A stretch of 64,000 nt of DNA from Siphonodentalium dalli (taxonomy: Eukaryota > Mollusca > Scaphopoda > Gadilida > Siphonodentaliidae): NCBI GenBank assembly GCA_032622095.1, contig CP136062.1:13729710-13793709 (forward strand), in the 5' to 3' direction. The position numbers were made by a program, and so were the translations under genes. Shown here one piece after another: positions 13,701 to 58,500 of the stretch (position 1 is the stretch's first letter; each line of letters opens with the position of its first letter). The notes under the pieces were generated by a model. That model saw only the letters and a list, made by a program, of their open reading frames with translations. It was not told the origin of the DNA and did not search any database.

Positions 13701-14970
13701 CCCTAACCCTAACCCTAACCCTAACCCTAACCCTAACCCTAACCCTAACCCTAACCCTAACCCTAACCCTAACCCTAACCCTAACCCTAACCCTAACCCT
13801 AACCCTAACCCTAACCCTAACCCTAACCCTAACCCTAACCCTAACCCTAACCCTAACCCTAACCCTAACCCTAACCCTAACCCTAACCCTAACCCTAACC
13901 CTAACCCTAACCCTAACCCTAACCCTAACCCTAACCCTAACCCTAACCCTAACCCTAACCCTAACCCTAACCCTAACCCTAACCCTAACCCTAACCCTAA
14001 CCCTAACCCTAACCCTAACCCTAACCCTAACCCTAACCCTAACCCTAACCCTAACCCTAACCCTAACCCTAACCCTAACCCTAACCCTAACCCTAACCCT
14101 AACCCTAACCCTAACCCTAACCCTAACCCTAACCCTAACCCTAACCCTAACCCTAACCCTAACCCTAACCCTAACCCTAACCCTAACCCTAACCCTAACC
14201 CTAACCCTAACCCTAACCCTAACCCTAACCCTAACCCTAACCCTAACCCTAACCCTAACCCTAACCCTAACCCTAACCCTAACCCTAACCCTAACCCTAA
14301 CCCTAACCCTAACCCTAACCCTAACCCTAACCCTAACCCTAACCCTAACCCTAACCCTAACCCTAACCCTAACCCTAACCCTAACCCTAACCCTAACCCT
14401 AACCCTAACCCTAACCCTAACCCTAACCCTAACCCTAACCCTAACCCTAACCCTAACCCTAACCCTAACCCTAACCCTAACCCTAACCCTAACCCTAACC
14501 CTAACCCTAACCCTAACCCTAACCCTAACCCTAACCCTAACCCTAACCCTAACCCTAACCCTAACCCTAACCCTAACCCTAACCCTAACCCTAACCCTAA
14601 CCCTAACCCTAACCCTAACCCTAACCCTAACCCTAACCCTAACCCTAACCCTAACCCTAACCCTAACCCTAACCCTAACCCTAACCCTAACCCTAACCCT
14701 AACCCTAACCCTAACCCTAACCCTAACCCTAACCCTAACCCTAACCCTAACCCTAACCCTAACCCTAACCCTAACCCTAACCCTAACCCTAACCCTAACC
14801 CTAACCCTAACCCTAACCCTAACCCTAACCCTAACCCTAACCCTAACCCTAACCCTAACCCTAACCCTAACCCTAACCCTAACCCTAACCCTAACCCTAA
14901 CCCTAACCCTAACCCTAACCCTAACCCTAACCCTAACCCTAACCCTAACCCTAACCCTAACCCTAACCCT
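4742..14970. repeat. telomeric repeat tract (CCCTAA)n
   Basis: About 1,705 head-to-tail CCCTAA units (TTAGGG on the minus strand), the telomere repeat of most animals outside arthropods and nematodes. The C-rich strand reads 5' to 3' on +, so the chromosome end faces left and the chromosome body begins at 14971. I see one substitution, at 8300 (CCCTAT). There is no degenerate zone before the subtelomere; the tract stops abruptly at 'ccctagcgtgc'. Its length is in the range reported for animal telomeres, but assembly may have altered it. Confidence 0.98.
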
Positions 14971-15300
14971 AGCGTGCTTTAATTGCAAATGAAAAAACAC
15001 TCACTTATGCAATTGATAAACACCACAGTTCTCTGTTGTTATGAAACAGTGGGGTTTATAAAAACAGTGTTTTCGGAAATTATTAGAGAGCTGTGAGAGA
15101 ATCTCTGCGGGTTGAGTTCTATGTAGTTCTAAGTTTACTGGTGACAGCTGAGCGGTCAATAACTGAGAAAATGTTACCCTCGAGGGTAAAAAGTGATTTA
15201 CGGCCCGCCATGTGACGCACTCTCAGCCAATCAGAAGAGAGGAAAATGGGATGAAGGATAACAAATTTAATTAGTCCCCCATGTCATATATCTAAATAGT
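14971..15300. other. telomere-proximal subtelomere, no gene seen
   Basis: Non-repetitive DNA abutting the telomere. It holds a 16-bp perfect palindrome, ttaccctcgagggtaa, at 15174-15189 and an inverted-CCAAT-like stretch 'cagccaatcagaa' near 15224, a phrase repeated at about 36656 and 36718. No open frame of useful size is present. The phrase 'agtcccccaggtcatatat', recurring at 15270-15315, 18750 and 39490-39610, marks the edge of dispersed repeats. Confidence 0.6.
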
Positions 15301-22789: not shown

Positions 22790-23913
22790 AACAATTTCCT
22801 TTCGCGCGGGCTACAGGTCGTACATTTGGTCTGATCTTTAGGAAATTTGTCAAGAATGTTGACATTGACATGTAGATGGAAATGAGTCATTTTGGGGTCA
22901 TTCGCCAGCAGCCATCTTGGATTTCAAAATTCAATACGTTAGCATGGGCTTCAGGCCGGATTAAATCAATTGGCGCGGTCTACATGTCGTACTGTTTGTC
23001 TGATCATCATGAAATTTGTCATGGATGTTAATAATGACATGTACATGTAGATGGGAATGAGTCATTTTGGGTTCGTTCGGCCGAAAAAACATGGCCGCCA
23101 GCAGCCATCTTGGATTTTACTCTTTGCATGACTAAATCCTTTGGCACAGGCTACAGGTCCTTACTTTGGTCAGATTATCATGAAATTTGTCATGATGTTA
23201 ATACTGATAGGCAGATGGGAATGAGTTATTTTGGGGTAGTTTGGCCAAAAAACATGGCCATCATGAGCATCTTGGATTTTACTCTTTGCATGACTAAATC
23301 CTTTGGCGCAGGCTACAGTTCGTAGCTTTGGTCGGATCTTCATGAAATTTGTAATGCCTGTTGACCTTGACATGTAAATGGGAATGGGTCCTTTTGGGTT
23401 CATTCGGCCAAAAAACATGGCCGCCAGCAGCCATCTTGGATTTTACTCCTTGCATGACTAAATCCTTTGGCACAGGCTACAGGTCCTTACTTTGGTCAGA
23501 TCATTATGAAATTTTGTCATGAATGTTGACATTGGCATGTAGATGGGAATGAGTTATTTTGGGGTCATTTGGCAAAAATACATGACCGCTGGCAACCATC
23601 TTTGATTTCAAAATTAAATCGATTGGCGCGGTCAACAGGTCGTACTGTTCTTCTGATTATCGTGAAATTTGTCATGGATGTTAATAATGACAGGCTGATG
23701 GGAACGAGTCATTTTGGGGTAGTTCGGCCAAAAAACATGGCCGTCATGAGCATCTTGGATTTTACTCTTTGCATGACTAAATCCTTTGGCGCGAGCTACA
23801 AGTCGTAGCTTGGTCGGATCTTCATGAAATTTGTCATGGCTGTTGACCTTGACATGTAAATGGGAACGAGTCCTTTTGGGATCATTCGGCCAAAAAACAT
23901 GGCCGCCAGCAGC
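22790..23913. repeat. about 162-bp satellite, left block
   Basis: Monomers of 155-165 bp (successive 'atggcc' marks at 23091, 23254, 23417, 23582, 23737, 23899). Each has the order: 'catggccgcc', 'agcagccatcttggat', an 'actctttgcatgactaaatcc' or 'tcaaaattaaatcgattgg' variant, 'ggctacaggtcgta', 'tcatgaaatttgtcatg', 'gacatgtagatgggaa', 'gagtcattttggggt'. Four monomer types alternate. The block ends at 23913 where a transposon has entered. Frames of about 80-113 codons on both strands are by-products of the repeat. Confidence 0.95.
23906..23913. repeat. 8-bp target-site duplication, left copy
   Basis: ccagcagc directly left of the terminal inverted repeat, repeated at 27468-27475. Joining the flanks through one copy restores the normal satellite reading 'gccgccagcagccatcttgg'. 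Confidence 0.93.
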
Positions 23914-24784: not shown

Positions 24785-25542
24785 GGAGAATGGTCGCCTT
24801 AGAAATTAACTCCACACATGAAACTTACCCGATTTCGATGAAACTTCGTATGTGAGGATACTATCGGTCGGGAAGTGGCATAGGCATATTAATTTTCAGA
24901 TCCGAGGTAAACTTTTCACGTGCCGAGGTCAAATCTGTTTTTACGCTGTGTTACGGGACTTTCATTTGAGTTCGGTGCTTACAAATCGATTCGAAACAGC
25001 GCGAATAATAAAATGCCAGTCATAATAATGACACTGTGAGAATCTTTCGTGTTTCCTCTTTCCAACGATATATAATGCGTATGTATCCGTTTTAGTTATC
25101 TGCCTCAATTATCAAGAAGAAGTGGTATAATCTTCCATCAGGATAAAAACAATGCGTAACTTCTATGACGTCGTTAGAGGTCATAACGTTAGATTACGTT
25201 AACGCTTAACCGGCCGATGAATTTGACTGTTTCAGACGTCTTGGCGATATCTCGGGCACCGATGGTAATTTATCTTTACGTTGAAACTTGATAATTAATG
25301 AGCGTGTGTATATGAGGCGCGTTTATATACTTGAGTGGAAATAAAATCGGGTTAAACTGGCGGATTTTTACGGACGAAATTTGATGCATAGGGTATCTCG
25401 GTATCCGCTGGGCCGATTTCCCGGTATCCGCTGGGCCGATTTCCACCATTTTTGGGGTGTTGGTGTTTGACCCCACCTGACCTTGACCTTAAAAATTGTC
25501 AATTCAAGGTCAAAGCCGGGACGAAGTCGGGTCACCTTCTAG
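24785..25542 (+). mobile_element. Helitron-like fragment, family 2, nested in the TIR element
   Basis: The 3' end reads 'gccgggacgaagtcggg', then 'tcacctt', then CTAG (25539-25542) followed by T: the hairpin-spacer-CTRR arrangement of Helitron 3' ends. The body shares 'gatttcgatgaaacttcgtatgtg', 'ggcataggcatattaatttt' and 'tgaccttgacctta..attcaaggtcaa' with the complete unit at 38888-39489, but is diverged, and I cannot place its 5' end. Confidence 0.7.
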
Positions 25543-27475: not shown

Positions 27476-30400
27476 CATCTTGGATTTTACTCTTTGCATG
27501 ACTAAATCCTTTGGCAACGGCTACATATCCTTACTTTGGTGAGATAATTATGAAATTTGTCGTGGATGTAGACATTGAAATGTAGATGGGAATGTGTCAT
27601 TTTGGGGTCATTTGGCCAAAAAACATGGCCGCTGGCAGCCATCTTTGATTTCAAAATTAAATTGTTTGGCGCGGTCTACAGGTCGTACTGTTCGTCTTGA
27701 TTATAATGAAATTTGTCATGGATGTTGATAATGACAGGCAGATGGTAACGAGTCATTTTGGGGTAGTTTGGCCAAAAAACATGGCCATCATGAGCATCTT
27801 GGATTTTACTCTTTGCATGACTAAATCCTTTGGCGCGGGTTACAGGTCGTAGCTTTGGTCCGATCTTCATGAAATTTGTCATGGCTGTTGATCTTGACAT
27901 GTAAATGGGAATGAGTCATTTTGGGGTCATTCGCCAGCAGCCATCTTGGATTTCAAAATTCAATACGTTAGCATGGGCTTCATGCCGGATTAAATCAATT
28001 GGCGCGGTCTACAAGTCGTACTGTTTGTCTGATCATCATGAAATTTGTCATGGATGTTAATAATGACATGTACTTGTAGATGGGAATGAGTCATTTTGGG
28101 TTCGTTTGGCCGAAAAAAACATGGCCGCCAGCAGCCATCTTGGATTTTACTCTTTGCATGACTAAATCCTTTGGCACAGGCTACAGGTCCTTACTTTGGT
28201 CAGATCATCATGAAATTTGTCATGGATGTTAATAATGACATGTACATGTAGATGGGAATGAGTCATTTTGGGTTCGTTCTGCCGAAAAAACATGGCCGCC
28301 AGCAGCCATCTTGGATTTTACTCTTTGCATGACTAAATCCTTTGGCACAGGCTACAGGTCCTTACTTTGGTAAGATTATCATGAAATTTGTCATGGATGT
28401 TAATAATGATAGGCAGATGGGAATGATTCCTTTTGGGGTCATTCGGCCAAAAAACATGACCACCAGCAGCCATCTTGGATTTTACTCTTTGCATGACTAA
28501 ATCCTTTGGCACAGGCTACAGGTCCTTACTTTGGTCAGATCATTATGAAATTTGTCATGAATATTGACATTGACATGTAGATGGGAATGAGTCATTTTGG
28601 TGTTATTTGGCCAAAAAAAATGGCCGCTGGCAGCCATCTTTGATTTCAAAATTAAATCTATTGGCGTGGTCTACATGTCGTACTGTTCGTCTGATTGTCA
28701 TGAAATTTGTCATGGATGTTAATAATGACAGGCTGATGGGAATGATTCATTTTGGGGTAGTTCGACCAAAAAACATGGCCGTCATGAGCATCTTGGATTT
28801 TTCTCTTTTCATGACTAAATCCTTTGGCACAGGCTCTAGGTCGTACCTTTCGTCAGATCCTTATGATATTTGTCATGGCTATTGACATGTACAATGTAGA
28901 TGGGAATGAGTCATTTTGGGGTCATTTGGCCAAAAAACATGGCCGCTGGCAGCCATCTTTGATTTCAAAAATAAATCGATTGGCCCGGTCTACAGGTCAT
29001 ACTGTTCGTCTGATTATCATGAAATTTGTCATGGATGTTAATAATGACAGGCAGATGGGAACGAGTCATTTTGGGGTAGTTTGGCCAAAAAACATGGTCG
29101 TCATGAGCATCTTGGATTTTACTCTTTGCATGACTAAATCATTTGGCGTGGGCTGCAGGTCGTAGCTTTGGTCAGATCTTCATGAAATTTGTCATGTCTG
29201 TTGACCTTGACATGCAAATGGGAATGAGTCCTTTTGGGGTCATTTGGCCTAAAGACATGACCGCCAGCAGTCATCTTGGATTTTACTCTTTGCATGACTA
29301 AATCCGTTGGCACAGGCTACACTGCTACAGGTCCTTACTTTGGTCAGATCATTATGAAATTTGTCATGAATGTTGACATTGACATGTAGATGGGAATAAG
29401 TCATTTTGGGGTCATTTGGCCAAAAAACATGGCCGCTGGCAGCCATCTTTGATTTCAAAATTAAATCGTTTGGCGCGGTCTACAGGTCGTACTGTTCGTC
29501 TTGATTATAATGAAATTTGTCATGGATGTTGATAATGAGAGGCAGATGGGAACGAGTCATTTTGGGGTAGTTTGGCAAAAAAACATGGCCATCATGAGCA
29601 TCTTGGATTTTCTCTTTGCATGACTAAATCCTTTGGCGCGGGCTACAGGTCGTAGCTTTGGTCCGATCTTCTTGAAATTTGTCATGGCTGTTCATCTTGA
29701 CATGTAAATGGGAATGAGTCATTTTGGAGTCATTCGCCACAGCCATCTTGGATTTCAAAATTCAATACGTTAGCAAGGGTTTCAGGCCGGATTAAATCAA
29801 TTGGCGCGGTCACAGGTGTATTGTTTGTCTGATCATCATGAAATTTGTCATGGATGTTAATAATGACATGTACATGTAGATGGGAATGAGTCATTTTGGT
29901 TTCGTTCGGCCGAAAAAACATGGCCGCCAGCAGCCATCTTGGATTTTACTCTTTGCATGACTAAATCCTTTGGCACAGGCTACAGGTCCTTACTTTGGTC
30001 AGATTATCATGAAATTTGTCATGGATGTTAATAATGATATGCAGATGGGAATGAGTCCTTTTGGGGTCATTCGGCCAAAAAACATGACCGCCAGCAGCCA
30101 TCTTGGATTTTACTCTTTGCATGACTAAATCCTTTGGCATAGGCCACAGGTCCTTACTTGGTCAGATCATTATGAAATTTGTCATGAATGTTGACATTGA
30201 CATGTAGATGGGAATGAGTCATTTTGGTGTTATTTGGCCAAAAAAAAAGGGCCGCTGGCAGCCATCTTTGATTTCAAAATTAAATCGATTGGCGTGTTCT
30301 ACATGTCGTACTGTTCGTCTGATTGTCATGAAATTTGTCATGTATGTTAATAATGACAGGCTGATGGGAATGAGTCGTTTTGGGGTAGTTCGACCAAAAA

Positions 30401-33100
30401 AACATGGCCGTCATGAGCATCTTGGATTTTTCTCTTTGCATGACTAAATCCTTTGGCACAGGCTCTAGGTCGTACCTTTCGTCAGATCATTATGATATTT
30501 GTCATGGCTATGGACATGTACAATGTAGATGGGAATGAGTCATTTTGGGGTCATTTGGCCAAAAACCATGGCCGCTGGCAGCCATCTTTGATTTCAAAAT
30601 TAAATCGATTGGCGCGGTCTACAGGTCATACTGTTCGTCTGATTATCATGAAATTTGTCATGGATGTTAGTAATGACAGGCAGATGGGAACGAGTCATTT
30701 TGGGGTAGTTTGGCCAAAAAAACATGGTCGTCATGAGCATCTTGGATTTTACTCTTTGCATGACTAAATCCTTTTGCGTGGGCCGCAGGTCGTAGCTTTG
30801 GTCAGATCTTCATGAAATTTGTCATGGCTGTTGACCTTGACATGCAAATGGGAATGAGTCCTTTGGGGTCATTTGGCCAAAAGACATGACCGCCAGCAGT
30901 CATCTTGGATTTTACTCTTTGCATGACTAAATCCGTTGGCACAGGCTACAGGTCCTTACTTTGGTCAGATTATTATGAAATTTGTCATGAATGTTGACAT
31001 TGACATGTAGATGGGAATGAGTCATTTTGGGGTCATTTGGCCAAAAAACATGGCCGCTGGCAGCCATCTTTGATTTCAAAATTAAATCGTTTGGCGCGGT
31101 CTACAGGTCGTACTGTTCATCTTGATTATGATGAAATTTGTCATGGATGTTGATAATGAGAGGCAGATGGGAACGAGTCATTTTGGGGTAGTTTGGCAAA
31201 AAAACATGGCCATCATGAGCATCTTGGATTTTACTCTTTGCATGACTAAATCCTTTGGCGCGGGCTACAGGTCGTAGCTTTGGTCCGATCTTCTTGAAAT
31301 TTGTCATGGCTGTTGATCTTGACATGTAAATGGGAATGAGTCATTTTGGGGTCATTCGCCAGCAGCCATCTTGGATTTCAAAATTCAATACGTTAGCATG
31401 GGCTTCAGGCCGGATTAAATCAATTGGCGCGGTCTACAGGTCGTACTGTTTGTCTGATCATCATGACATTTGTCATGGATGTTAATAATGACATGTACAT
31501 GTAGATGGGAATGAGTCATTTTGGGTTCGTTCGGCCGAAAAAACATGGCCGCCAGCAGCCATCTTGGATTTTACTCTTTGCATGATTAAATCCTTTGGCA
31601 CAGGCTACAGGTCCTTACTTTGGTCAGCTTATCATGAAATTTGTCATGGATGTTAATAATGATAAGCAGATGGGAATGAGTCCTTTTGGGGTCATTCGGC
31701 CAAAAAACATGACCGCCAGCAGCCATCTTGGATTTTACTCTTTGCATGACTAAATCCTTTGGCACAGGCTACAGGTCTTACTTTGGTCAGATCATTATGA
31801 AATTTGTCATGAATGTTGACATTGACATGTAGATGGGAATGAGTCATTTTGGGGTTATTTGGCCAAAAAAATGGCCGATGGCAGCCATCTTTGATTTCAA
31901 AATTAAATCGATTGGCGTGGTCTACATGCCGTACTGTTCGTCTGATTGTCATGAAATTTGTCATGGATGTTGATAATGACAGGCTGATGGGAATGAGTCA
32001 TTTTGGGGTAGTTCGACCAATAAACATGGTCGTCATGAGCATCTTGGATTTTTCTCTTTGCATGACTAAATCCTTTGGCACAGGCTCTAGGTCGTACCTT
32101 TCGTCAGATCATTATGATATTTGTCATGGCTATTGACATGTACAATGTAGATGGGAATGAGTCATTTTGGGGTCATTTGGCCAAAAAACATGGCCGCTGG
32201 CAGCCATCTTTGATTTCAAAATTAAATCGATTGGGGCGGTCTACATGTCGTACTGTTCGTCTGATTATCATGAAATTTGTCATGGATGTTAATAATGACA
32301 GGCAGATGGGAACGAGTCATTTTGGGGTAGTTTGGCCAAAAAACATGGTCGTCATGAGCATCTTGGATTTTACTCTTTGCATGACTAAATCCTTTGGCGT
32401 GGGCTGCAGGTCGTAGCTTTGGAAATGAGTTATTTTGGGGTAATTTGGCCAAAAAACATGGCCGCTGGCAGCCATCTTTGATTTCAAAATTAAATCGTTT
32501 GGCGCGGTCTACAGGTCGTACTGTTCGTCTTGATTGTAATGAAATTTGCCATGGATGTTGATAATGAGAGGCAGATGGGAACGAGTCATTTTGGGGTCGT
32601 TTGACCAAAAAACATGGCCGTCAGCGGTCATCTTGGATTTAAAAATTCAATCCATTAGCACGGGCTACAGGTCGTATCTTTTGTCGGATCATTATTAAAT
32701 TTGGATGTTAAAATTGACATTTAGATGGGAAACGAGTAATTTGGGGGTTGTTCGGCCAAAAATATGGCCGCCAGCAGCCATCTTGGATTATACTCTTTGG
32801 TCCAATCATCATGAGTTTTGTCATGGATGTTAACAATTACATGTAGATGGGAAAAGATTCATTTTGAATTCAACCAAGAAACCTGGTCGCCAGCAGCCAT
32901 CTTGTATTTTACTCTTTACACGACTAAATCCTTTGACACGGGCTACAGGTCGTATCTTTTGTCGTCGGATCATCATGAAATGTGTGACCGATGTTAACAA
33001 TGACATGTAAATAGGAATGAGTCTTTTTTGGGTCATTTGGCAAAAAAACGATGGCTGTCGCGGCCATCTTGAATTTTAATCTTTGCATAACTAGGCCTTT
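27468..33100. repeat. about 162-bp satellite, right block, with higher-order repeat
   Basis: Continuation of the array at 22790 after the transposon. A higher-order period of about 1,626 bp (near ten monomers) is visible: a rare 'ttatttggccaaaaaa' variant recurs at about 28601, 30228 and 31853, and the 'ttcaatacgttagca' monomer recurs at about 27960, 29760 and 31385. Monomers beyond about 32640 are more diverged, as array edges usually are. Each monomer carries 'agccatctt'. The many 70-128 codon frames on both strands are shadows of the repeat. Confidence 0.95.
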
Positions 33101-36640: not shown

Positions 36641-36755
36641 GTATGGCAGTAGGCAGCCAATCAGAACGCGAGAAAGTTACGTGAGATATAATATCGTAAA
36701 ATAGTATAGCAGTGTGCAGCCAATCAGAATGCGAGAAAGTCACGTGAATTATCTT
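36626..36755. repeat. two tandem copies of about 62 bp
   Basis: 'atcgtaaaatagtat.gcagt', 'gcagccaatcagaa.gcgagaaag' and 'acgtga' occur twice, from about 36631 and 36693. Each copy has a CCAAT-box-like ccaatcag. Confidence 0.85.
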
Positions 36756-36938
36756 CTCTCCTATATATTTTGGTACATTCTGTATTCGAGAGATAACCCA
36801 CATCCTCCGGACCTCAATTATATGATCGTGAATGAGTATTGATATACCCCACTAAACTTTGACAAACACCAGTAATGGTGTGTAGATAATTTACATATCT
36901 CTCCTATATATTTTGATACAATCTATCTAATTTACATA

Positions 36939-36974
36939 TCTCATATATATTTTGAAGACCTCTGTCTGTATGTT

Positions 36975-37006
<32 letters not shown>

Positions 37007-37456
37007 ATTAATACAAATCTACGATTCTCGACCGATCGGGACGAAACTTGGTACGTGTGTGTAGTTTGACCAGGCGGTAAACGTTGTCGTATTGGCGAGC
37101 CCGTGCGGTGCCCGCTTCGCGCATGCGCAGACGAGATCTCGGAAACGGGTGGAGCTATCGACTTGAAATTTGCTATGTGAATGTATCTTGACCCGGATAC
37201 GAATTTTATCGGGTCGCCGAGCCCGTGCGACACCAGCTTCGCGCATGCGCAGACGAGATCTCGGAAACGGGTGGAGCTATCGACTTGAAATTTGCTATGT
37301 GAATGTATCTTGCCCCGGATACGAATTTTATCGGGTCGCCGAGTCCGTGCGACGCCAGCTTCGCGCATGCGCAGACCAGATCTCGGAAACGGGTAGAGCT
37401 ATCGACTTGAAATTTTGTTTTTGAATAGCCCGGACAACGTCGGGCTCATCGGCTAG
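36939..37456 (+). mobile_element. Helitron-like unit 1 (family 1)
   Basis: Begins TCTCATATATATTTTGAAGA after an A and ends 'agcccggacaacgtcgggct', 'catcgg', CTAG followed by T. This is the expected 5'-TC and 3' hairpin-CTRR pattern of a Helitron inserted between A and T. Internally there is a (TCTG)n run, then 'acgattctcgaccgatcggg' and three 122-bp submonomers carrying gcgcatgcgc (37119, 37241, 37363). No Rep/helicase coding, so non-autonomous. A shorter 5' start of the same kind lies just left (36898-36938). Confidence 0.8.
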
Positions 37457-38099
37457 TCTCCTATATATTTTGAAGACCTCTGTCTGTATGTTTGTTTGTC
37501 TGTCTGTCTGTCTGTCATTTATACAAATCTACGATTCTCGACCGATCGGGACGAAACTTGGTACGTGTGTGTAGTTTGACCAGGCGGTGAACGTTGTCGT
37601 ATTGGCGAGCCCGTGCGGCGCCCGCTTCGCGCATGCGCAGACGAGATCTCGGCAACGGGTGGAGCTATCGACTTGAAATTTGGTATGTGAATGTGTCTTG
37701 CCCCGGATACGAATTTTATCGGGTCGCCGAGCCCGTGCGACGCCAGCTTCGCGCATGCGCAGACCAGATCTCGGAAACGGGTGGAGCTATCGACTTGAAA
37801 TTTGGTTTTTGAATAGCCCGGACAACGTCGGGCTCATCGACGAGATCTCGGAAACGGGTGGAGCTATCGACTTGAAATTTGGTATGAGAATGTATCTTGG
37901 CCCGGATACGAATTTTATCGGATCGCCGAGCCCGTGCGACGCCAGCTTCGCGCATGCGCAGACCAGATCTCGGAAACGGGTAGGGCTATCGACTTGATAT
38001 TTGGTTTTTGAATAGCCCGGACAACGTCGGGCTGGGTAGAGCTATCGACTTGAAATTTGGTTTTTGAATAGCCCGGACAACGTCGGGCTCATCGGCTAG
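37457..38099 (+). mobile_element. Helitron-like unit 2 (family 1)
   Basis: Follows unit 1 with no spacer. Starts TCTCCTATATATTTTG and ends CTAG at 38096-38099. It contains three copies of the terminal hairpin 'agcccggacaacgtcgggct' (about 37816, 38015 and 38069). Only the last is followed by the CTAG end, so the unit looks like a recombined or stacked form. gcgcatgcgc occurs at 37629, 37751 and 37950. Confidence 0.8.
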
Positions 38100-38503
38100 T
38101 CTCTCTTATATATTTTGATACAATCTATCTGTTTGTCTGTCTGTCATTTATACAAATCTACGATTCTCCACCGATCGAGACCAAACTTCCTATCTAGGGG
38201 TAAAATCCCACGGACACTGTCGTTGTCGTATTGGCGACCCCGTGCGACGCCCGTGCAGCGCATGCACAGACGAGATCTCAGAAACGGATGGAGCTATCGA
38301 CTTGAATTTTGCTATGTGAATGTATCTTGCCCAGGATACGAATTTTATCGGGTCGCCGAGCCCGTGCGACGCCAGTTTGGCGCATGCGCAGACCAGATCT
38401 CGGAAACGGGTGGAGCTATCGACTTGACATTTGGTTTTTGAATAGCTATCGACTTGAAATTTGGTTTTTGAATAGCCCGGACAACGTCGGGCTCATCGGC
38501 TAG
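38100..38503 (+). mobile_element. Helitron-like unit 3 (family 1)
   Basis: Starts TCTCTCTTATATATTTTGATA and ends hairpin-catcgg-CTAG (38500-38503). Short form with two submonomers. The first palindrome is mutated (gcgcatgcac, 38258); the second is intact (38380). Confidence 0.8.
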
Positions 38504-38887
38504 TCTCATATATATTTTGAAGACCTCTGTATGTTTGGTTGTCTGTATGTTTGTTTGTCATCTATACAAATCTACGATTCTCGACCGATCGGGTCGAAAC
38601 TTGGTACGTGTGTGTAGTTTGACCAGGCGGTGGTCGTTGTCGTATTGGCGAGCCCGTGCGACGCCCGTGCAGCGCATGCGCAGACGAGATCTCGGAAACG
38701 GGTGGAGCTATCGACTTGAAATTTGGTATGTGAATGTACCTTGCCCCGGATACGAATTTTATCTGGTCACCGAGCCCGTGCGACGCCAGCTTCGCGCATG
38801 CGCAGACCAGATCTCGGAAACGGGTGGAGCTATCGACTTGAAATTTGGTTTTTGAATAGCCCGGACAACGTTGGGCTCATCGGCTAG
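38504..38887 (+). mobile_element. Helitron-like unit 4 (family 1)
   Basis: Starts TCTCATATATATTTTGAAGA and ends CTAG at 38884-38887 after a hairpin with one change (acaacgttgggct). Two submonomers with gcgcatgcgc at 38672 and 38794. Confidence 0.8.
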
Positions 38888-39489
38888 TCTATTATATATT
38901 TTGGAAGATCTGTTTGTGTGTCTGTGTGTTCGCGATGAACTCGAAAACGGCCGAGCCGATTTCGATGAAACTTGGTACGTGGGGGTATTTTCGGCCGGCG
39001 GGTGGCATGGGCCTATTAATTTGTCCGTGCGACGTGACCTTGACCTTGAAATCGGATCATTTCAAGGTCAAACGCCCGAATATCAGGAGATTTCGATGAA
39101 ACTTGGTATGTGGGGGTACTTTCTTATGGCGAGTCTCATAAGCATATTCATTTGCCCGTGCGACGTGACCTTGACCTTGAAATCGGGTAACTTCAAGGTC
39201 AAATCACCAATTTTGATGGGATTTTGACGAAATTTGATACGTGGGGTTACTTTCGTCCACTGATTGTTTTGGACGGGTCCAATCGTGACCCCGACCAGAC
39301 CTTGACCTTCAAAATGATCAATTCAAGGTCAAATCGGGTAAAACCGGATGGATTTCGACGGGCACGTTTGTCGGGTACTTTTGTCCGGGCTGTGTTTTTG
39401 GACTGGTCAAATCGTGACCCCACTTGACCTTGACCTTCAAAATGGACAATTCAAGGTCAAAGCCCGGACGAAGACGGGTCACCTTCTAG
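38888..39489 (+). mobile_element. Helitron-like unit 5 (family 2), complete
   Basis: Starts TCTATTATATATTTTGGAAGA directly after unit 4 and ends 'agcccggacgaagacggg', 'tcacctt', CTAG (39486-39489), then T. The body differs from family 1: four pairs of inverted 'tgaccttgacctt...' / '...caaggtcaa' motifs following 'gatttcgatgaaacttggta'-type words. Its ends are recognisably related to family 1, which suggests shared replication machinery. The 60-118 codon frames it contains are spurious. Confidence 0.8.
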
Positions 39490-39612
39490 TAATATATATA
39501 AATAGTCCCCCAGGTCATATATATAAATAGTCCCCCAGGTCATATATTTAGTCCCCAAGTCATATATTTAGTCCCCCAGGTCATATATTTAGTCCCCCAA
39601 GTCATATATTTA
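39490..39612. repeat. 'agtcccccaggtcatatat' short tandem repeat
   Basis: Five to six copies of 21-29 bases with core 'agtcccccaggtcatata'. The same phrase occurs next to R1 at 15270-15315 and 18750. Confidence 0.9.
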
Positions 39613-41454: not shown

Positions 41455-43346
41455 TATGATAAAACCTGAGAACAAATACGTCTCCACTCAATGCCTATTT
41501 ATATGACTCCCAGAAGTTATTCCTCGGCAAATATATAACGGGGCTGTTACAATCGAATAGTGCATGCAATACTTCATTGTCATATCTTGAGGAGCACATA
41601 CAGCACTGAAGGTTATTAACATATGTTGTCTTGTTCAGAAGAAGCCCTAGATGGCGCATATCGACCTTAGTGTGTGTATTTTGTTTTGAGAATGTCCCAG
41701 ATCTTCCATGTTGATAGTGGGTGTTTGTGAACATCAGAAAATGTTAACAGGTTTTTGTCCATGCTAACTTCAAACGACCATTCGCGTGCGTAGTAACTTT
41801 CCTCGCGAGTTTTAACCATGCGCTTCCACTCAATCATATTTGGGAAAAACCATTATCCAGGAAGTCGAAAAGAAAGTCAGATAGTTCATACTGTTCCAAA
41901 ATTTTGAGAATGTCCGGAGCGAACCCAGAAACACGTTGTTTGAATAGCCTCAGCTGATACAGTTTTTGGATAAACATTTGCAATGGAACCTGATGTTCCA
42001 GTGGCAAGTGAAGAATAGTTTCGAGAAAGTTCAATTTATTGATGTGAAGTTCACGTTCGATTGGAAGCAGACCCAACAATCTAACTGCGAGTTTGGTACG
42101 TGTTCGAGTAGGGAGTCCTTCCATATGCTTTATACATGTTCGGAATGCTTGTTCCATTATTAATATATCCACCTTGCTCGGGGAGCACAATAATTCACAT
42201 CCATACAGGGCCTTAGGTAGGATGACACATGTGAGAATTTTTGTAAGTGTAGTTGGAGAAAACGATCTAAGGATGACTCGACCTGAAATTCCAAAGTAAG
42301 TGTTTCGCATTCTCTGTGCTATCTGTTCGGCTCGATGTGTGCTATTTGAAGATTGGAATTGCATGCTACCAAGATGGGTGCGTTTTGTAGTTTCGGTTAG
42401 TTGACTCTCTCATGTACTCCACGATCTGTTTATATTATTAGGCTGTCCAGCCGGCTCATTGAATACGACAATGACACTTTTTGTTATTGAGAAATTAAAT
42501 CTCCACCGTATACTGTAATTGAAACAACTTGTGAGTAGTTCGTCGAGGCCTGTTTTAGTGTGTGAAATTAGGGTTATGTCGTCGGCCGTAGTGGGTGCTG
42601 TACATTTGGTAGATCCTATGGAGAACCCTCTCTCATTCTCCCTCAGAATATTCAATAGCTCGTCAATGTATACCAAGTAGAAAAACCGTGACGTCACTGC
42701 CCCTTATCTTGTTCCTTGGTCAACCTTGAACGATTCCGACATACTAGCATTACACAAAACATGACTGAAGTAGTCCTCGTACGTGTTACGGATTAGCCTC
42801 AAAATTGTCCCACGGAAACCGAGTGTATGTAGTTTTACAAGGAGAACTGTGTGCCACACTCGGTCGAAGGCTTTTTGCGAATCCAGGAAGCACACGTACG
42901 CCTTCGAGCCAGCGTCTCGGGTGTAGGTCACAGCTTCTTGAAGCACAAAATATGTCATGTTGCACCCGATGCCTTTTTGAAATCCATGTTGCAGGATGTT
43001 TGGGAACTTCAACAAGATCGAGTTTCTGAGAAATCTGTCCATGAGCGTGTGATCGAAAACTTTGTACAGTACTGGTAAAAGAGTTATTGCACGATAACTG
43101 TCAGGTACATTTCGTGGTTTGGTTTTCTCCTTCGTAGAGCGGAATGATGATGCCGGTTTTCATGTATACAGGAATAAATTCGAATTTCAACATTAAGTTG
43201 TAGAAGGAGCACAATAATGTTATAATAGAGTTTGGAGCATTTAAAATGTGTTCTGCAACTATTTGGTCTCTGTTCTTCTTAATGCGCTTTAATGCGGAAC
43301 GCAGGTCCAGTTGAGTGATTTGCTTATGCAAAGGTAATTCATACAC
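41455..43346 (-). pseudogene. LINE reverse transcriptase fragment, broken
   Basis: Minus-strand non-LTR retrotransposon RT. From the N-side: 'LRSALKRIKKNRDQIVAEHIL' (43300 region), 'GIIIPLYEG', then after a frameshift 'HGFQKGIGC' and motif A 'FLDSQKAFDRVWH' (aspartate intact). 'GTR*GAVTS' carries a TAA at about 42702 where the family has Q. Motif C is 'TADDITLIS', with T for the usual Y. A second in-frame stop lies at about 42408, followed by the thumb region 'YFGISGRVILRSFSP'. After further frameshifts comes a C-terminal Cys/His cluster 'CCMCSS...HALFDC...FW' (41495-41600). Endonuclease and the 3' end are absent. The fragment fits exactly between the two A repeats. It is not functional; clade (Jockey/I-like) uncertain. 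Confidence 0.9.
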
Positions 43347-46176: not shown

Positions 46177-47960
46177 ACGTACAGAAGCACAATAAGACTA
46201 AGCAAGAAAACGTACTATTGTGATATATTGGAACAAAACAAGAGAGATATAAAGGCTACCTGGAGGATATTGAATGGAGCGATCAATAAAACTTCTAATG
46301 CATACTCAATTCCTTCTATATTTGTAGATAACCAGATAAAAATCACTCATATAACCGATATAGCAGAAAAGTTTAATGATTATTTTTCAAGTATTGGTCA
46401 ACAAACAAATGAAAGAGTCATACACGAACATTGTGCAAATTACACAGATTATCTTCTTTACAGGGAATCAGATGTATTAAAATTAGCCCCCCACTAATGA
46501 ACAAGAAATCATACTGATTTGCCTAAATTTTAAAAGCAAAAATAGCAAAGAGGTGCATGGTTTAACGAGTAAGACAATGAAGGCACGGTAGAAGAGATAG
46601 CAATCGCCCTAAAACATATATTCAATTTATCACTCAAATATGGCATATTTCCCCAAAAAATGAAATTGTCCCGAGTTGTCCCGATCTACAAAAGCGGTAA
46701 TAACGGTGAATTCAGTAATTATAGACCCATTAGTATATTGCCTTGTTTCTCAAAAATATTGGAAAAAATAATATCTAAAAGATTGGTAGATTTCTTAAAT
46801 GATAACGATACCCTGTATGAACATCAGTATGGTTTCAGAAAAAGTCACTCAACAATACATCCCGTTATGCACTTTCTTGAAGATGTAGTCGAACAAAATG
46901 ATGAACCCACTCGAGACTCCACCTTAGCCATTTTCATTGAACTTTCAAAAGCTTTTGATACAATTAGTCATGATATCCTACTAAGTAAAATGGATCACTA
47001 TGCAACGTGGCATTGCGAATGATTGGTTCAGAGACTATCTGTCCGAAAGACGACAGTTTACTGACTGCAATGGTAGTATTTCTAGTCTTAAGTGTATCCT
47101 CAACGGAGTGCCCCAGGGCTCCATACTCGGTCCGACAATTTTCCTCATTTACGTGAATGATATGTCTGCTGCAACTTCATTGAAATTGTTATCATTCGCC
47201 GATGATACTACGCTATACACATCCGGCAATAACGGCCATCTTATTGAAAACATCGTGAACAATGAGCTAAAAGATGTCTACAAATGGTGTTGTTGTAACT
47301 GCCTATCCATAAACAAAACTAAAAGTAAATATATGCTTCTTCATCCAAAAAACAATGACGACAAATGGAATTTTCTAAAGATATACATAAACGACGTAGA
47401 ACTCAAGCGTGCTGGAAACAAAGGTGATGAAAGATCCCTAAAATTGCTCGGAATTACAATCGATGAAAACCTCACGTTTAAAGACCATACCTCGGCGATA
47501 TGTTCTAAAATGGCAAGAGCCCTATATGGTATGAACAAGATGAGGAATTTATTTCCAGGAGATGCCCTTCGAACGCTATATTATGCCTTAATTCAAAGCC
47601 GTCTGGTCTATGGAATTCAAATTTGGGGGCACTCAGTGTCATACAATAACCCCTTCCTACTACAAAAGAGAGCTATCAGAACAATAAGCTATGCCAAATA
47701 CAACAGCCACACTGAACCCTTATTAAAAAAAAAGAAATATTTTGAAATTCAGAGATTTGCATGCCTGTCATGTTAGTCTGTTTATGTATGATTGGACACA
47801 TTTTAACCTACCGGCATCATTTCTAACATCATTTGACAACAAAATATCAATCACAAGACAATCTGGATGCATTAGGGAAATTAAATCACGAACGAAATTC
47901 TCAGAGGTTTTACCCAAACATTCATTCCATGATTATGGAATGAAACTGACAAAAAACTAA
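46177..47960 (+). pseudogene. LINE reverse transcriptase, broken by frameshifts
   Basis: Reads in pieces. The pre-RT segment 'RLSKKTYYCDILEQNK' through 'EKFNDYFSSIGQQ' ends at a stop at 46495. RT resumes at about 46655: 'SRVVPIYKSG', 'YRPISILPCFSKILEK', 'HQYGFRKSHST', then motif A as 'FIELSKAFDTISHD', where the first catalytic aspartate is glutamate. A frameshift near 47000 leads to 'GVPQGSILGPTIFLIYVND' and motif C 'FADDTTLY' (intact), then 'LGITIDENLTFKDH' and 'SRLVYGIQIWG'. A last frameshift near 47740 leads to the tail ending at 47960. Endonuclease is missing. Clade by motif resemblance is CR1/Jockey. It is not functional. Confidence 0.92.
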
Positions 47961-49571: not shown

Positions 49572-52500
49572 ATCCCAGGATGTACGATTCTATGTCTCAG
49601 GATGTACGATTCTATGTCTCAGGATGTACGATTCTATGTCTCAGGATGTACGATTCTATGTCTCAGGATGTACGATTCTATGTCTCAGGATGTACGATTC
49701 TATGTCTCAGGATGTACGATTCTATGTCTCAGGATGTATGATTCTATACCCAGGATGTACGATTCTATGTCTCAGGATGTACGATTCTATGTCCCAGGAT
49801 GTACGATTATATGTCTCAGGATGTATGATTATATGTCACAGGATGTATGATTCGATGTCTCATGATGTACGATTCTATGTCTCAGGATGTACGATTCTAT
49901 GTCTCAGGATGTACGATTCTATGTCTCAGGATGTACGATTGTATGTCTCAGGATGTACGATTCTATGTCCCAGGATGTACGATTATATGTCTCAGGATGT
50001 ACGATTCTATGTCTCAGGATGTACGATTCTATTTCCCAGGATGTATGATTCTATGTCTCAGGATGTACGATTCTATGTCTCAGGATGTATAATTCTATGA
50101 CTCAGGATATACGATTCTATGTCTCAGGATGTACGATTATATGTCTCAGGATGTATGCTTCTATGTCTCAGGATGTACGATTCTATGTCTCAGGATGTAT
50201 GATTCTATGTCTCAGGATGTACGATTATATGTCCCAGGATGTACGATTCTATGTCTCAGGATGTACGATTCTATATCCCAGGATGTAAGATTATATGTCC
50301 CAGGATGTACGATTCTATGTCTCAGGGTGTAAGATTATATGTCCCAGGATGTACGATTCTATGTCCCAGGATGTATGATTATATGTCCCAGGATGTATGC
50401 TTCTATGTCTCAGGATGTACGATTCTATGTCTCAGGATGTATGATTCTATGTCTCATGATGTAAGATTCTATGACTCAGGATGTATGATTCTATGTCTCA
50501 TGGTGTATGAATCTATATCTCAGTATGTATGATTCTATGTCCCAGGATGTATGATTCTATGTCTCAGGATGTACGATTCTATGTCTCAGGATGTATGATT
50601 CTATGTCTCAGGATGTATGATTCTGTGAATCAGGATGTGTGATTCTATGTCTCAGGATGTACGATTCTATGTCTCAGGATGTATGATTCTATGTCCCAGG
50701 ATGTATGATTCTATGTCTCAGGATGTACGATTCTATGTCCCAGGATGTACGATTCTATGACTCAGGATGTACGATTCTATGTCTCAGGATGTACGATTCT
50801 ATGTCTCAGGATATACGATTCTATGTCTCAGGATGTACGATTCTATGTCTCAGGATGTACGATTCTATGTCCCAGGATGTACGATTCTATGTCCCAGGAT
50901 GTATGATTATATGTCACAGGATGTAAGATTATATGTCCCAGGATGTACGATTCTATGTCTCAGGATGTACGATTCTATGTACAAGGATGTATGATTCTAT
51001 TTCCCAGGATGTATGATTCTATGTCTCAGGATGTACGATTCTATGTCCAAGGATGTACGATTCTATGTCTCAGGATGTACGATTCTATATCCCAGGATGT
51101 AAGATTATATGTCCCAGGATGTACGATTCTATGTCCCAGGATGTATGATTATATGTCCCAGGATGTATGCTTCTATGTCTCAGGATGTACGATTCTATGT
51201 CTCAGGATGTATGATTCTATGTCTCAGGATGTATGATTCTATGACTCAGGATGTATGATTCTATGTCTCAGGATGTACGATTCTATGTCTCAGGATGTAT
51301 GATTATATGTCCCAGGATGTATGATTCTATGTCTCAGGATGTACGATTCTATGTCCCAGGATGTACGATTCTATGACTCAGGATGTACGATTCTATGTCT
51401 CAGGATGTACGATTCTATGTCTCAGGATATACGATTCTATGTCTCAGGATGTACGATTCTATGTCTCAGGATGTACGATTCTATGTCCCAGGATGTACGA
51501 TTCTATGTCCCAGGATGTATGATTATATGTCACAGGATGTAAGATTGTATGTCCCAGGATGTACGATTCTATGTCTCAGGATGTACGATTCTATGTACAA
51601 GGATGTACGATTCTATTTCCCAGGATGTATGATTCTATGTCTCAGGATGTACGATTCTATGTCTAAGGATGTACGATTCTATGTCCCAGGATGTATGATT
51701 CTATGTCCCAGGATGTACGATTCTATGTCCCAGGATGTATGATTATATGTCCAAGGATGTACGATTCTATGTCTCAGGATGTATGATTCTATGTCCCAGG
51801 ATGTACGATTCCATGTCCCAGGATGTATGATTCTATGTCCCAGGATGTACGATTCTATGTCTCAGGATGTACGATTCTATGTCCAAGGATGTACGATTCT
51901 ATGTCCCAGGATGTATGATTCTATGTCTCAGGATGTACGATTCTATGTCCCAGGATGTACGATTCTATGTCCAAGGATGTATGATTCTATGTCTCAGGAT
52001 GTACGATTCTATGTCCCAGGATGTATGATTCTATACCCAGGATGTACGATTCTATGTCCAAGGATGTATGATTCTATGTCTCAGGATGTAAGATTCTATG
52101 TCCCAGGATGTATGATTCTATACCCAGGATGTACGATTCTATGTCCAAGGATGTATGATTCTATGTCTCAGGATGTAAGATTCTATGTCCCAGGATGTAC
52201 GATTCTATTTCCCAGGATGTATGATTCTATACCCAGGATGTACGATTCTATGTCCAAGGATGTATGATTCTATGTCTCAGGATGTAAGATTCTATGTCCC
52301 AGGATGTACGATTCAATTTCCAAGGATGTATGATTCTATGCCTCAGGATGTAAGATTCTATGTCTCAGGATGTACGATTCTATTTCCCAGGATGTATGAT
52401 TCTATACCCAGGATGTACGATTCTATGTCCAAGGATGTATGATTCTATGTCGCAGGATGTAAGATTCTCTGTCTCAGGGTGTACGATTGTATGTCTCAGG

Positions 52501-55500
52501 ATGTACGATTATATGTCCCAGGATGTACGATTCTATGTCCCAGGATGTATGATTCTATACCCAGGATGTACGATTCTATGTCCAAGGATGTATGATTCTA
52601 TGTCCCAGGATGTTTGATTCTATGTCCCAGGATGTATGATTCTATACCCAGGATGTACGATTCTATGTCTCAGGATGTATGATTCTATGTCCCAGGATGT
52701 ACGATTCTATGTCCCAGGATGTATGATTCTATACCCAGGATGTACGATTATATGTCCAAGGATGTATGATTCTATGTCTCAGGATGTAAGATTGTATGTC
52801 CCAGGATGTACGATTCTATGTCCCAGGATGTATGATTCTATACCCAGGATGTACGATTCTATGTCCAAGGATGTATGATTCTATGTCGCAGGATGTAAGA
52901 TTCTATGTCTCAGAATGTACGATTGTATGTCTCAGGATGTACGATTATATGTCCCAGGATGTACGATTCTATGTCCAAGGATGTATAATTCTATCTACCA
53001 GGATGTATGATTATATGTCCCAAGATGTATGATTCTATACCCAGGATGTACGATTCTATGTCTCAGGATGTATGATTCTATGTCCCAGGATGTACGATTC
53101 TATGTCCCAGGATGTACGATTCTATGTCCCAGGATGTATGATTCTATTTCCCAGGATGTACGATTCTATGTCTCAGGATGTACGATTCTATGTCTCAGTA
53201 TGTACGATTCTATGTCTCAGGATGTACGATTCTATGTCCCAGGATGTATGATTCTATGTCTCAGGATGTATGATTCTATGTCTCAGGATGTACGATTCTA
53301 TGTTCCAGGATGTATGATTCTATGTCTCAGGATGTATGATTCTATGTCTCAGGATGTATGATTCTATGTCTCAGAATGTACGATTCTATGTCTCAGGATG
53401 TACGATTCTATGTCTCAGGATGTACGATTCTATGTCTCAGGATGTACGATTCTATGTCTCAGGATGTACGATTCTATGTCTCAGGATGTATGATTCCATG
53501 TCCCAGGATGTACGATTCTATATCTCAGGATGTACGATTCTATGACTCAGGATGTATGATGCTTTGTCCCAGGATGTAAGATTGTATGTCTCAGGATGTA
53601 TGATTCTATTCCCAGGATGTACGATTCTATACCCAGGATGTACGATTCTATGTCCAATGATGTATGATTCTATGTCTCAGGATGTAAGATTGTATGTCCC
53701 AGGATGTACGATTGTATGTCCCAGGATGTATGATTCTATACCCAGGATGTACGATTCTATGTCCAAGGATGTATGATTCTATGTCGCAGGATGTAATATT
53801 CTATGTCTCAGGATGTACGATTGTATATCCCAGGATGTACGATTATATGTCCCAGGATGTACGATTCTATGTCCAAGGATGTATAATTCTATCTCCCAGG
53901 ATGTATGATTCTATGTCCCAGGATGTATGATTCTATGTCCCAGGATGTATGATTCTATACCCAGGATGTAAGATTCTATGTCCCAGGATGTATGATTCTA
54001 TTTCCCAGGATGTATGATTTTATACCCAGGATGTACGATTCTATGTCCAAGGATGTATGATTCTATGTCTCAGGATGTACGATTCTATTTCCCAGGATGT
54101 ATGATTTTATACCCAGGATGTACGATTCTATGTCCAAGGATGTATGATTCTATGTCTCAGGATGTACGATTGTATGTCCCAGGATGTACGATTGTATGTC
54201 CCAGGATGTACGATTCTATTTCCCAGGATGTACGATTCTATGTCTCAGGATGTACGATTCTATGTCTCAGGATGTACGATTCTATGTCTCAGGATGTACG
54301 ATTCTATGTCCCAGGATGTATGATTCTATGTCTCAGGATGTACGATTCTATGTCTCAGGATGTACGATTCTATGTCTCAGGATGTACGATTCTATGTCTC
54401 AGGATGTACGATTCTATGTCTCAGGATGTACGATTCTATGTCTCAGGATGTACGATTCTATGTCTCAGGATGTGCGATTATATGTCTCAGGATGTATGAT
54501 TATATGTCCCAGGATGTACGATTGCATGTCTCAGGATGTACGATTCTATGTCCCAGGATGTATGAATCTATTTCCCAGGATGTACGATTCTATGTCCCAG
54601 GATGTATGATTCTATGTCCCAGGATGTATGATTCCATGTCTCAGGATGTACGGTTCAATGTCTCAGGATGTAAGATTATATGTCCCAGGATGTATGATTC
54701 TATGTCTCAGGATGTACGATTTTATGTCTCAGGATGTATGATTATATTTCCCAGGATGTACGATTCTATGTCTCAGGATGTATGATTCCATGTCCCAGGA
54801 TGTATGATTCTATTTCCCAGGATGTACGATTCTATGTCTCAGGATGTATGATTCCATGTCCCAGGATGTACGATTCTATGACTCAGGATATACGATTCTA
54901 TGACTCAGGATGTATGATTCTATGTCTCAGGATGTATGATTCTATGTCCCAGGATGTACGATTCTATGTCCCAGGATGTACGATTCTATGTCCCAGGATG
55001 TATGATTATATACCCAGGATGTAAGATTCTATGTCCCACGATGTATGATTCTATACCCAGGATGTACGATTCTATGTCCAAGGATGTATGATTCTATGTC
55101 TCAGGATGTAAGATTCTATGTCCCAGGATGTACGATTATATGTCTCAGGATGCATGATTATATGTCCCAGGATGTACGATTCCATGTCTCAGGATGTACG
55201 ATTCTATGTCCCAGGATGTATGAATCTATTTCCCAGGATGTACGATTCTATGTCCCAGGATGTATGATTCTATGTCCCAGGATGTATGATTCCATGTCTC
55301 AGGATGTACGGTTCAATGTCTCAGGATGTAAGATTATATGTCCCAGGATGTATGATTCTATGTCTCAGGATGTACGATTTTATGTCTCAGGATGTATGAT
55401 TCTATTTCCCAGGATGTACGATTCTATGTCTCAGGATGTATGATTCCATGTCCCAGGATGTACGATTCTATGTCTCAGGATGTATGATTCCATGTCCCAG

Positions 55501-58500
55501 GATGTATGATGCTATGTCCCAGGATGTACGATTCTATGTCCCAGGATGTATTATTCTATGTCTCAGGATGTACGATTCTATGTCTCAGGATGTACGATTC
55601 TATGTCTCAGGATGTACGATTCTATGTCTCAGGATGTACGATTCTATGTCTCAGGATGTACGATTCTATGTCTCAGGATGTACGATTCTATGTCTCAGGA
55701 TGTACGATTCTATGTCTCAGGATGTACGATTCTATGTCCCAGGATGTATGATTCTATGTCACAGGATGTATGATTCTATGTCTCAGGATGTATGATTCTA
55801 TGTCTCAGGATGTACGATTCTATGTCTCAGGATGTATGATTCTATGTCTCAGGATGTATGATTCTATGTCTCAGGGTGTACTATTCTATGTCCCAGGATG
55901 TATGATTCTATGTCACAGGATGTATGATTCTATGTCTCAGGATGTATGATTCTATGTCTCAGGATGTACGATTCTATGTCTCAGGATGTACGATTCTATG
56001 TCTCAGGATGTACGATTCTATGTCTCAGGATGTATGAATCATGTTTCAGGATGTATGATTCTATGAATCAGGATGTATAATTATATGACTCAGGATATAC
56101 GATTCTATGTCTCAGGATGTACGATTCTATGTCTCAGGATGTACGATTCTATGGCTCAGTATGTACGATTCTATGTCTCAGGTTGTACGATTCTATGTCT
56201 CAGGATGTACGATTCTATGTCTCAGGATGTACGATTCTATGTCTCAGGATGTACGATTATATGCTGAGATGTATGATTATATGTCCCAGGATGTACGATT
56301 CCATGTCTCAGGATGTACGATTCTATGTCCCAGGATGTATGATTCTATTTCCCAGGATGTACGATTCTATTTCCCAGGATGTATGATTCTATGTCCCAGG
56401 ATGTATGATTCCATGTCTCAGGATGTACGGTTCAATGTCTCAGGATGTAAGATTATATGTCCCAGGATGTATGATTCTATGTCTCAGGATGTACGAATTT
56501 ATGTCTCAGGATGTATGATTCTATTTCCCAGGATGTACGATTTTATGTCTCAGGATGTATGATTCTATGACTCAGGATGTATGATTCTATGTTCCAGGAT
56601 GTATGATTCTATGGCTCAGTATGTACGATTCTATGATTTAGTATGTACGATTCTATGTCCCAGGATGTACGATTCTATGTCTCAGGATGTACGATTATAT
56701 GTCTCAGGATGTACGATTCTATGTCCCAGGATGTACGATTCTATGTCCCAGGATGTACGATTCTAAGTCTCAGGATGTACGATTCTATGACTCAGGATGT
56801 ACGAGTCTATGACTCATTATGTACGATTCTATGTCCCAGGATGTACGATTCTATGACTCAGGATGTACGATTCTATGACTCAGTATGTACGATTCTATGT
56901 CTCAGGATGTTCGATTCTATGTCTCAGGATGTACGATTCTATGTCTCAGGATGTACGATTCTATGTTACAGGATGTATGATTATATGTCACAGGATGTAT
57001 GATTCTATGTCTCAGGATGTATGATTCTATGTCTCAGGATGTACGATTCTATGTCTCAGGATGTATGATTCTATGTCTCAGGATGTATGATACTATGTCT
57101 CAGGATGTACGATTCTATGTCCCAGGATGTATGATTCTATGTCACAGGATGTATGATTCTATGTCTCAGGATGTATGATTCTATATCTCAGGATGTAAGA
57201 TTATATGTCTCAGGATGTACGATTCTATTTCCCAGGATGTATGATTCTATACCCAGGATGTACGATTCTATGTCCAAGGATGTATGATTCTATGTCGCAG
57301 GATGTAAGATTCTATGTCTCAGGATGTACGATTGTATGTCTCAGGATGTACGATTATATGTCCCAGGATGTACGATTCTATGTCCCAGGATGTATGATTC
57401 TATACCCAGGATGTACGATTCTATGTCCAAGGATGTATGATTCTATGTCCCAGGATGTTTGATTCTATGTCCCAGGATGTATGATTCTATACCCAGGATG
57501 TACGATTCTATGTCTCAGGATGTATGATTCTATGTCCCAGGATGTACGATTCTATGTCCCAGGATGTATGATTCTATACCCAGGATGTACGATTCTATGT
57601 CCAAGGATGTATGATTCTATGTCTCAGGATGTAAGATTGCTTGTCCCAGGATGTACGATTCTATGTCCCAGGATGTATGATTCTATACCCAGGATGTACG
57701 ATTCTATGTCCAAGGATGTATGATTCTATGTCGCAGGATGTAAGATTCTATGTCTCAGAATGTACGATTGTATGTCTGAGGATGTACGATTATATGTCCC
57801 AGGATGTACGATTCTATTCCAAGGATGTATAATTCTATCTACCAGGATGTATGATTCTATGTCCCAGGATGTATGATTCTATACCCAGGATGTACGATTA
57901 TATGTCTCAGGATGTATGATTCTATGTCCCAGGATGTACGATTCTATGTCCCAGGATGTACGATTCTATGTCCCAGGATGTATGATTCTATACCCAGGAT
58001 GTAAGATTCTATGTCCCAGGATGTATGATTCTATACCCAGGATGTACGATTCTATGTCCAATGATGTATGATTCTATGTCTCAGGATGTAAGATTCTATG
58101 TCCCAGGATGTACGATTCTATTTCCCAGGATGTATGATTTTATACCCAGGATGTACGATTCTATGTCCAAGGATGTATGATTCTATGTCTCAGGATGTAC
58201 GATTGTATGTCCCAGGATGTACGATTCTATCTCCCAGGATGTATGATTCTATTTCCCAGGATGTACAATTCTATGTCTCAGGATGTACGATTCTATGTCT
58301 CAGGATGTACGATTCTATGTCTCAGGATGTACGATTCTATGTCCCAGGATGTATGATTCTATGTCTCAGGATGTATGATTTTATGTCTCAGGATGTACGA
58401 TTCTATGTTCCAGGATGTATGATTCTATGTCTCAGGATGTATGATTCTATGTCTCAGGATGTACGATTCTATGTCTCAGAATGTACGATTCTATGTCTCA

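Follow-up and report, generated by a model that had tools for sequence, protein, structure and literature searches.

Helitrons in the genome of Siphonodentalium dalli very probably form stacks by independent insertion at the 5' ends of elements that are already resident. The stack described here lies in a 64,000-nucleotide window, meaning the whole stretch of DNA that was analysed (C2:13729710-13793709), of an assembly of 2.23 Gb in nine contigs. Insertion at the 5' motif of a resident element is shown in three cases, one in the window and two on contig C9. Beyond this, we lean slightly towards the view that these Helitrons target themselves, such that the 5' terminus cleaved by the Rep protein (A|TCTCATATATATTTTG) would be by far the best target and each insertion would rebuild it, giving one-way growth with no inbuilt limit.

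Structure and class of the stack

In the window sequence, five Helitron units, all on the plus strand, abut with a spacer of zero between positions 36939 and 39489. Unit 1 (36939..37456, 518 bp) is a non-autonomous Helitron of family A, to which units 2 (37457..38099, 643 bp) and 4 (38504..38887, 384 bp) also belong; the consensus ends of the family are TCTCATATATATTTTGAAGACC...CATCGGCTAG, and unit 2 starts with TCTCCTATATATTTTG. Unit 3 (38100..38503, 404 bp) has the 3' end common to family A and a distinct 5' end (TCTCTCTTATATATTTTGATACA), and unit 5 (38888..39489, 602 bp), with the ends TCTATTATATATTTTGGAAGAT...CACCTTCTAG, is a Helitron of family B. The five head-to-tail units with exact ends and no spacer, which a first-pass annotation had described from the letters alone, are borne out by these coordinates. 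Its designation of unit 5 as a different family also stands, two dispersed family B 3' ends being present in the window (25468-25542, plus strand, and 26452-26148, minus strand) with 92% identity to unit 5. Downstream of both of these dispersed ends there is a T and then a TA-rich run.

All five units begin with TCTC or TCTA followed by TATATATTTTG and end in CTAG. The terminal 30 bases of unit 1 (37427..37456, plus strand), comprising a short hairpin, a 6-base spacer and CTAG, recur identically in units 2 and 3 and with a single difference in unit 4. In units 1-4 the hairpin has a 6-bp stem and an 8-nt loop and lies 6 bases upstream of CTAG; that of unit 5 is weaker, with a 4-bp stem in the centroid structure, 7 bases upstream of CTAG. 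The start, hairpin, 6-7 base spacer and CTAG that had been proposed for each unit are therefore found in all five, the hairpins being short and folding modestly better than shuffled sequences (z -0.94 to -2.01). No Rfam family matched at gathering scores. The further proposal that the units satisfy an A|T rule five times fails as worded, since the four internal junctions read CTAG|TC and their 5' neighbour is G, not A. Of the outer flanks that had been named, the T after unit 5 is host DNA and opens a TATATA-rich target sequence (TAATATATATAAA, 39490..39502, plus strand), but the A at 36938 belongs to a Helitron, the host A that marks the left edge of the whole stack being located at 36751 (plus strand). 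The full extent of the stack is 36752-39489, within a 63-bp host repeat.

The 187 bp preceding unit 1 (36752..36938, plus strand), here termed the leader, hold two 5'-type motifs (36752-36772 and 36898-36915) and form the 5' part of a 591-bp Helitron, with unit 3 as its body. A joined-flank search, in which 40 of 1,578 candidates were scored, gave at least 39 matches to this stretch outside the window at 97-98%. In two of the three loci retrieved (L072 and L073) the leader-type stretch continues directly into a copy of unit 3, and in the third (L071) into a family A unit; in all three, TCTTCTCTCC is preceded by unlike host flanks that end in A. When leader and unit 3 are joined (36752-36938 and 38100-38503), 574 of 591 positions are identical to L073 without gaps, and 560 of 591 to L072 with 12 gap columns. 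The exact 37-mer spanning this join occurs 185 times genome-wide, and the leader followed by a family A start three times, the window included. Because leader and unit 3 are directly joined elsewhere, units 1 and 2 are placed by this comparison inside an older Helitron, inserted at an A|T at its second 5'-type motif. The window itself thus supplies the filled and empty states for this insertion; units 1 and 2 may have entered together, as a dimer.

Five copies of the host repeat were retrieved for the outer join. Three cross it gap-free (71/77 columns in L077, 71/75 in L079 and 74/79 in L080), L078 passes it by two bases and the alignment of L081 is gapped. An empty host site for the whole stack is moderately supported by these copies, given that they belong to a 63-bp tandem repeat and that the gap-free alignments extend about 13-17 bases past the join.

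The TC 5' terminus and the CTRR 3' terminus (CTAG) are present in all five units. Insertion at A|T without target-site duplication is seen at the empty site of leader plus unit 3 and in the C9 copies described below, the host copies at the outer join being moderate evidence. These termini, the target without duplication, the empty sites and a RepHel relative with like ends together support the classification of the window units as canonical Helitrons. Helentrons are described as inserting at TT and possessing an endonuclease domain, and Helitron2 as inserting after TTTT, with other termini (PMC5148889). Here, the A|T rule applies and an endonuclease domain is absent among the six Pfam matches of the relative's protein.

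A genome search for PF14214, with 150 of 457 candidates scored, yielded at least 151 matches, and 20 of the matches listed lie in frames of 1,500-1,700 aa. Locus L064, chosen because it adjoins a dense Helitron cluster on contig C1, carries on its minus strand a family A 5' end at 782 and a 3' end at 9456 (GCCCGGACAACGTCGGGCACATCGGCTAG) that differs from that of unit 1 by one base. Its frame of 1614 aa matches both PF14214 (Helitron_like_N) and PF05970 (PIF1) above cut-off, making L064 a predicted autonomous RepHel relative with family A-type ends. A search for such a Rep/helicase element had been suggested by the first-pass annotation, which named the lack of an autonomous relative, and dispersed copies without these exact ends, as the outcome that would count against it; the relative was found, and dispersed copies with exact ends are present. 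The 3' end of the L064 element is itself joined to a further Helitron. Residues 148-218 of its protein, N-terminal to the RepHel part, are STPR-type repeats (PF21107). At eight other PF14214 loci (L056-L063), family A ends were absent from the 1.5 kb of sequence covered on either side of the PF14214 domain. A second group of PF14214 matches, of about 90-110 bits and mostly in frames of 1,800-2,900 aa (e.g. C8:82475387 and C8:164614114), possibly represents another Helitron branch. The region C1:13739500-13787160, covered at 13739500-13749000 and 13758000-13767999, contains dense same-strand Helitron ends, an autonomous element and segmental copies.

Junctions and the side of insertion

The exact 27-base 3' end has 15,703 copies in the genome, followed by T in 15,529 (98.9%) and by TCT in 11,775 (75.0%). 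The 30-base family A 5' end has 9,742 exact copies, of which 4,631 (47.5%) are preceded by A, 4,766 (48.9%) by CTAG and 345 by neither. Chance is excluded by the thousands of exact junctions together with reversed-pattern controls for the end, junction and leader-join counts, all of which returned 0. Of the 100 3' ends listed first, 77 also appear among those listed as followed by TCT, as do 61 of 83 when the dense cluster at C1:13.75-13.79 Mb is set aside. At 14 consecutive C1 loci taken at the first listed 3' ends, the focal end proved to be truly joined in four, and in one more (L055) the TCT downstream was due to chance; this sample left out 7 joined ends of that stretch, each of which was among the TCT ends listed. 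Such chance occurrences and the inflation caused by segmental copies make the TCT junction count an overcount to some degree. The retrieved loci, counted after omission of ten that overlapped or were duplicates, contain 97 family A 5' ends, 49 after CTAG, 47 after A and one after a mutated CTAG. Some of the 5' ends preceded by A belong to unusual junctions that lack the G of CTAG, reading CATCGGCTA|TCTC, several of them inside one stack (L043, L022 and L023).

The side on which a newcomer enters can be read at C9:199.02-199.12M, where an 11-14-kb segment is present in nine copies, each having a 502-bp unit at one A|T. Compared with L027, the resident unit is identical at 499-502 of 502 positions and the left flank at 299-300 of 300. 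Seven of the nine copies carry the resident alone at that site; in L025 (687 bp) and L066 (557 bp) an extra unit occupies precisely the A|T at the resident's 5' end, after the host A and before the first T of the resident. These extras differ from one another, with 514 matches in 691 aligned columns, and we take them to have inserted independently of each other at a single 5' end; a circle that recombined within the first ~25 bases shared by the units is a possible alternative. The first-pass annotation had offered rolling-circle production or repeated end-to-end insertion as the origin of the stack, and it is the latter for which there is direct evidence, at two loci. Were growth on the 5' side a general rule, as we infer, the order of insertion in the window would be unit 5, unit 4, leader plus unit 3, unit 2 and unit 1, unit 5 probably being the first under that rule.

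The order of families and the divergence of units were also tallied. Family A precedes B, D or E at 22 junctions and follows B, C or D at 10 (p 0.05), junctions with unlabelled or 'a' units being omitted. Divergence order in adjacent A-A pairs was balanced, the left unit being the lower in 21 and the higher in 21 (n=42), and 15 versus 12 among the 27 non-seed pairs. A first tally that dated units by divergence from the family A majority (35 versus 20 of 58; 24 versus 11 of 38 non-seed, p 0.04) was dropped because family B units had been counted as A. Spacers of 2 bases (L015 and L041), 4 bases (L052) and 11 bases (L064) were rejected as proof of direction, since insertion on either side could yield them.

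Three other origins have to be weighed against insertion at resident 5' ends. Rolling-circle concatemers would arise if the transposase passed the 3' terminator, or recopied a circle, and inserted the resulting multimer. Circular Helitron forms joined exactly at CTAG-TC have been described (PMC4778049), tandem arrays in plants have been attributed to this route (Xiong et al., PMC12628747), and two adjacent pairs in this genome are mutually closest (366 and 377 bp in L023; 520 and 520 bp in L024). However, among 93 complete family A units a unit's neighbour is also its closest relative in only 2 of 42 adjacent pairs, and the likeness of adjacent units hardly differs from that of units in other arrays (medians 0.66 and 0.65, p 0.82), on a measure that divides by the longer unit and so gives length differences heavy weight. 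Many junctions also unite different families and the C9 extra units are unlike each other. Concatemers are therefore an unlikely origin of the stacks, and tandem rolling-circle copying as the main route is not supported by these sequence comparisons.

Alternatively, a newcomer could insert on the 3' side, at the G|T straight after a resident's CTAG. This is one of two options proposed for a pair of maize Helitrons (PMC2267711); a host T and TATATA are also found just downstream of CTAG, and the RepHel protein must cut CTAG|T too. Nevertheless, both C9 cases are 5'-sided, the window insertion is at a 5' motif, and the scarcity of exact 5' ends after neither A nor CTAG (345/9,742) argues against G|T as a general host target, which renders 3'-side stacking very unlikely. 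As for unequal crossing over or segmental duplication, by which units would be multiplied in a satellite-like manner, some stacks are indeed present as segmental copies (C9:199 Mb, L032 and L069), but duplication copies junctions and cannot create joins of unlike units or two different extras at one A|T. It is scarcely credible as the origin of the stacks and remains a secondary amplifier.

Target choice and related systems

Eighty distinct 3' ends with enough flank were divided into 40 joined and 40 free ends. Free ends are followed by T in 38 of 40 cases, and 30 of these 38 flanks, a few of which share one host repeat and are thus partly non-independent (L042 and L046), contain TATATA or ATATAT in positions 2-14, against a background of 3.7% of 43,342 AT sites. 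Five of the 38 were judged by eye to be variant Helitron 5' ends, without which the count is 28/33; the background without Helitron 5' ends is 133/6,678 and 318/10,602. The TATATA feature is present in all four element 5' ends tested. By a rough estimate, in which the numbers of available ends are assumed, Helitron 5' ends are used ~700 to 2,700 times as often per site as host A|T sites with TATATA nearby. Stacking probably results from the resemblance of the resident 5' end to the preferred target. The estimated usage exceeds what base preference would explain and suggests that incoming copies are guided by protein bound to the donor start site. For Helraiser, the preference for AT-rich DNA is reported to be strongest beside the transposon 3' end, and an AT-rich stretch lies near the 5' cleavage site (PMC4778049); this fits the target pattern here.

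In the mechanism proposed, the stack would consist of non-autonomous canonical Helitrons mobilised by a RepHel protein of the kind encoded by L064. A Helitron would enter a host site between A and T with a TATATA run downstream. As the first base of the new element is T and TATATAT follows at about the same distance, the host A together with the new 5' end would constitute a fresh target, at which the next Helitron would insert to give A|TC...CTAG|TC... without intervening bases, so that stacks would extend on the 5' side. We infer that one Rep enzyme reads the same feature in the donor 5' end and in the target. Self-targeting, if true, would mean that recognition of the donor site and choice of the target are linked in an HUH transposase, and would suggest a way for Helitrons to make satellite-like arrays without new host sites. 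The genome offers ~11,000 junctions, together with natural filled and empty pairs from which the side of insertion can be read at individual loci.

Several known systems resemble the stacks in part. Helraiser and Helibat of bats (Helitron1) likewise have a TC 5' end, a 3' CTAG with a hairpin, insertion at A|T without duplication and a RepHel protein (PMC4778049). As described there, the Helraiser preference is for AT-rich DNA in general, whereas here most of the free flanks examined have TATATA no more than ~14 bases from the cut and, unlike Helraiser, three quarters of exact 3' ends precede TCT, as at a joined Helitron. Head-to-tail Helitrons elsewhere have been read as products of rolling-circle copying or of consecutive insertions (PMC5876387, PMC2267711). 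In maize, two unlike Helitrons joined CTAG|TC were argued to be consecutive insertions (PMC2267711); that case is a single pair whose order was left open, whereas thousands of junctions and 5'-side filled and empty pairs are available here. The FoHeli elements of Fusarium and Metarhizium, with several 5' termini and one 3' end, can be compared with the 187-bp leader, and either 5'-end insertion or rolling-circle copying was proposed for three tandem copies. FoHeli differs in its non-canonical, Helitron2-like termini, the cases are few and the mechanism was not settled in that account (PMC5148889). Centromeric plant Helitrons (Xiong et al. 2016) also form tandem arrays (PMC12628747, PMC7492417, PMC5148889), reported as truncated repeats, in many of which several 5' ends accompany a single 3' end, in contrast to the both-ended units of several families found here. 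Transposon dimers in Drosophila (McGurk and Barbash) are similarly tandems from a common preferred site (PMC12628747), whereas here the site is supplied by the resident element's own 5' end. Tandem Helitrons and the debate on their origin have thus been published already (PMC2267711, PMC5876387, PMC5148889), and what appears to be new is the extreme 5'-directed self-stacking of canonical Helitrons; no description of the 5' terminus as a preferred Helitron target was noticed in the open-access literature consulted.

Other features of the window

The remainder of the window is rich in tandem repeats. At positions 4742-14971 the telomere-type repeat ACCCTA runs in nearly pure form for ~10.2 kb; this array lies inside the contig, ~13.7 Mb from its start, and adjoins an 18-bp satellite and an N gap of 100 bases. 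A 37-bp array occupies 15496-18177, 162-164-bp tandem arrays span 22797-23908 as well as 27476-32789, and a 22-bp satellite extends over 14 kb or more (49573-63997). Open frames at 41834-43159 (minus strand) and 46573-47776 (plus strand) are reverse-transcriptase-like, as judged by eye from their translations.
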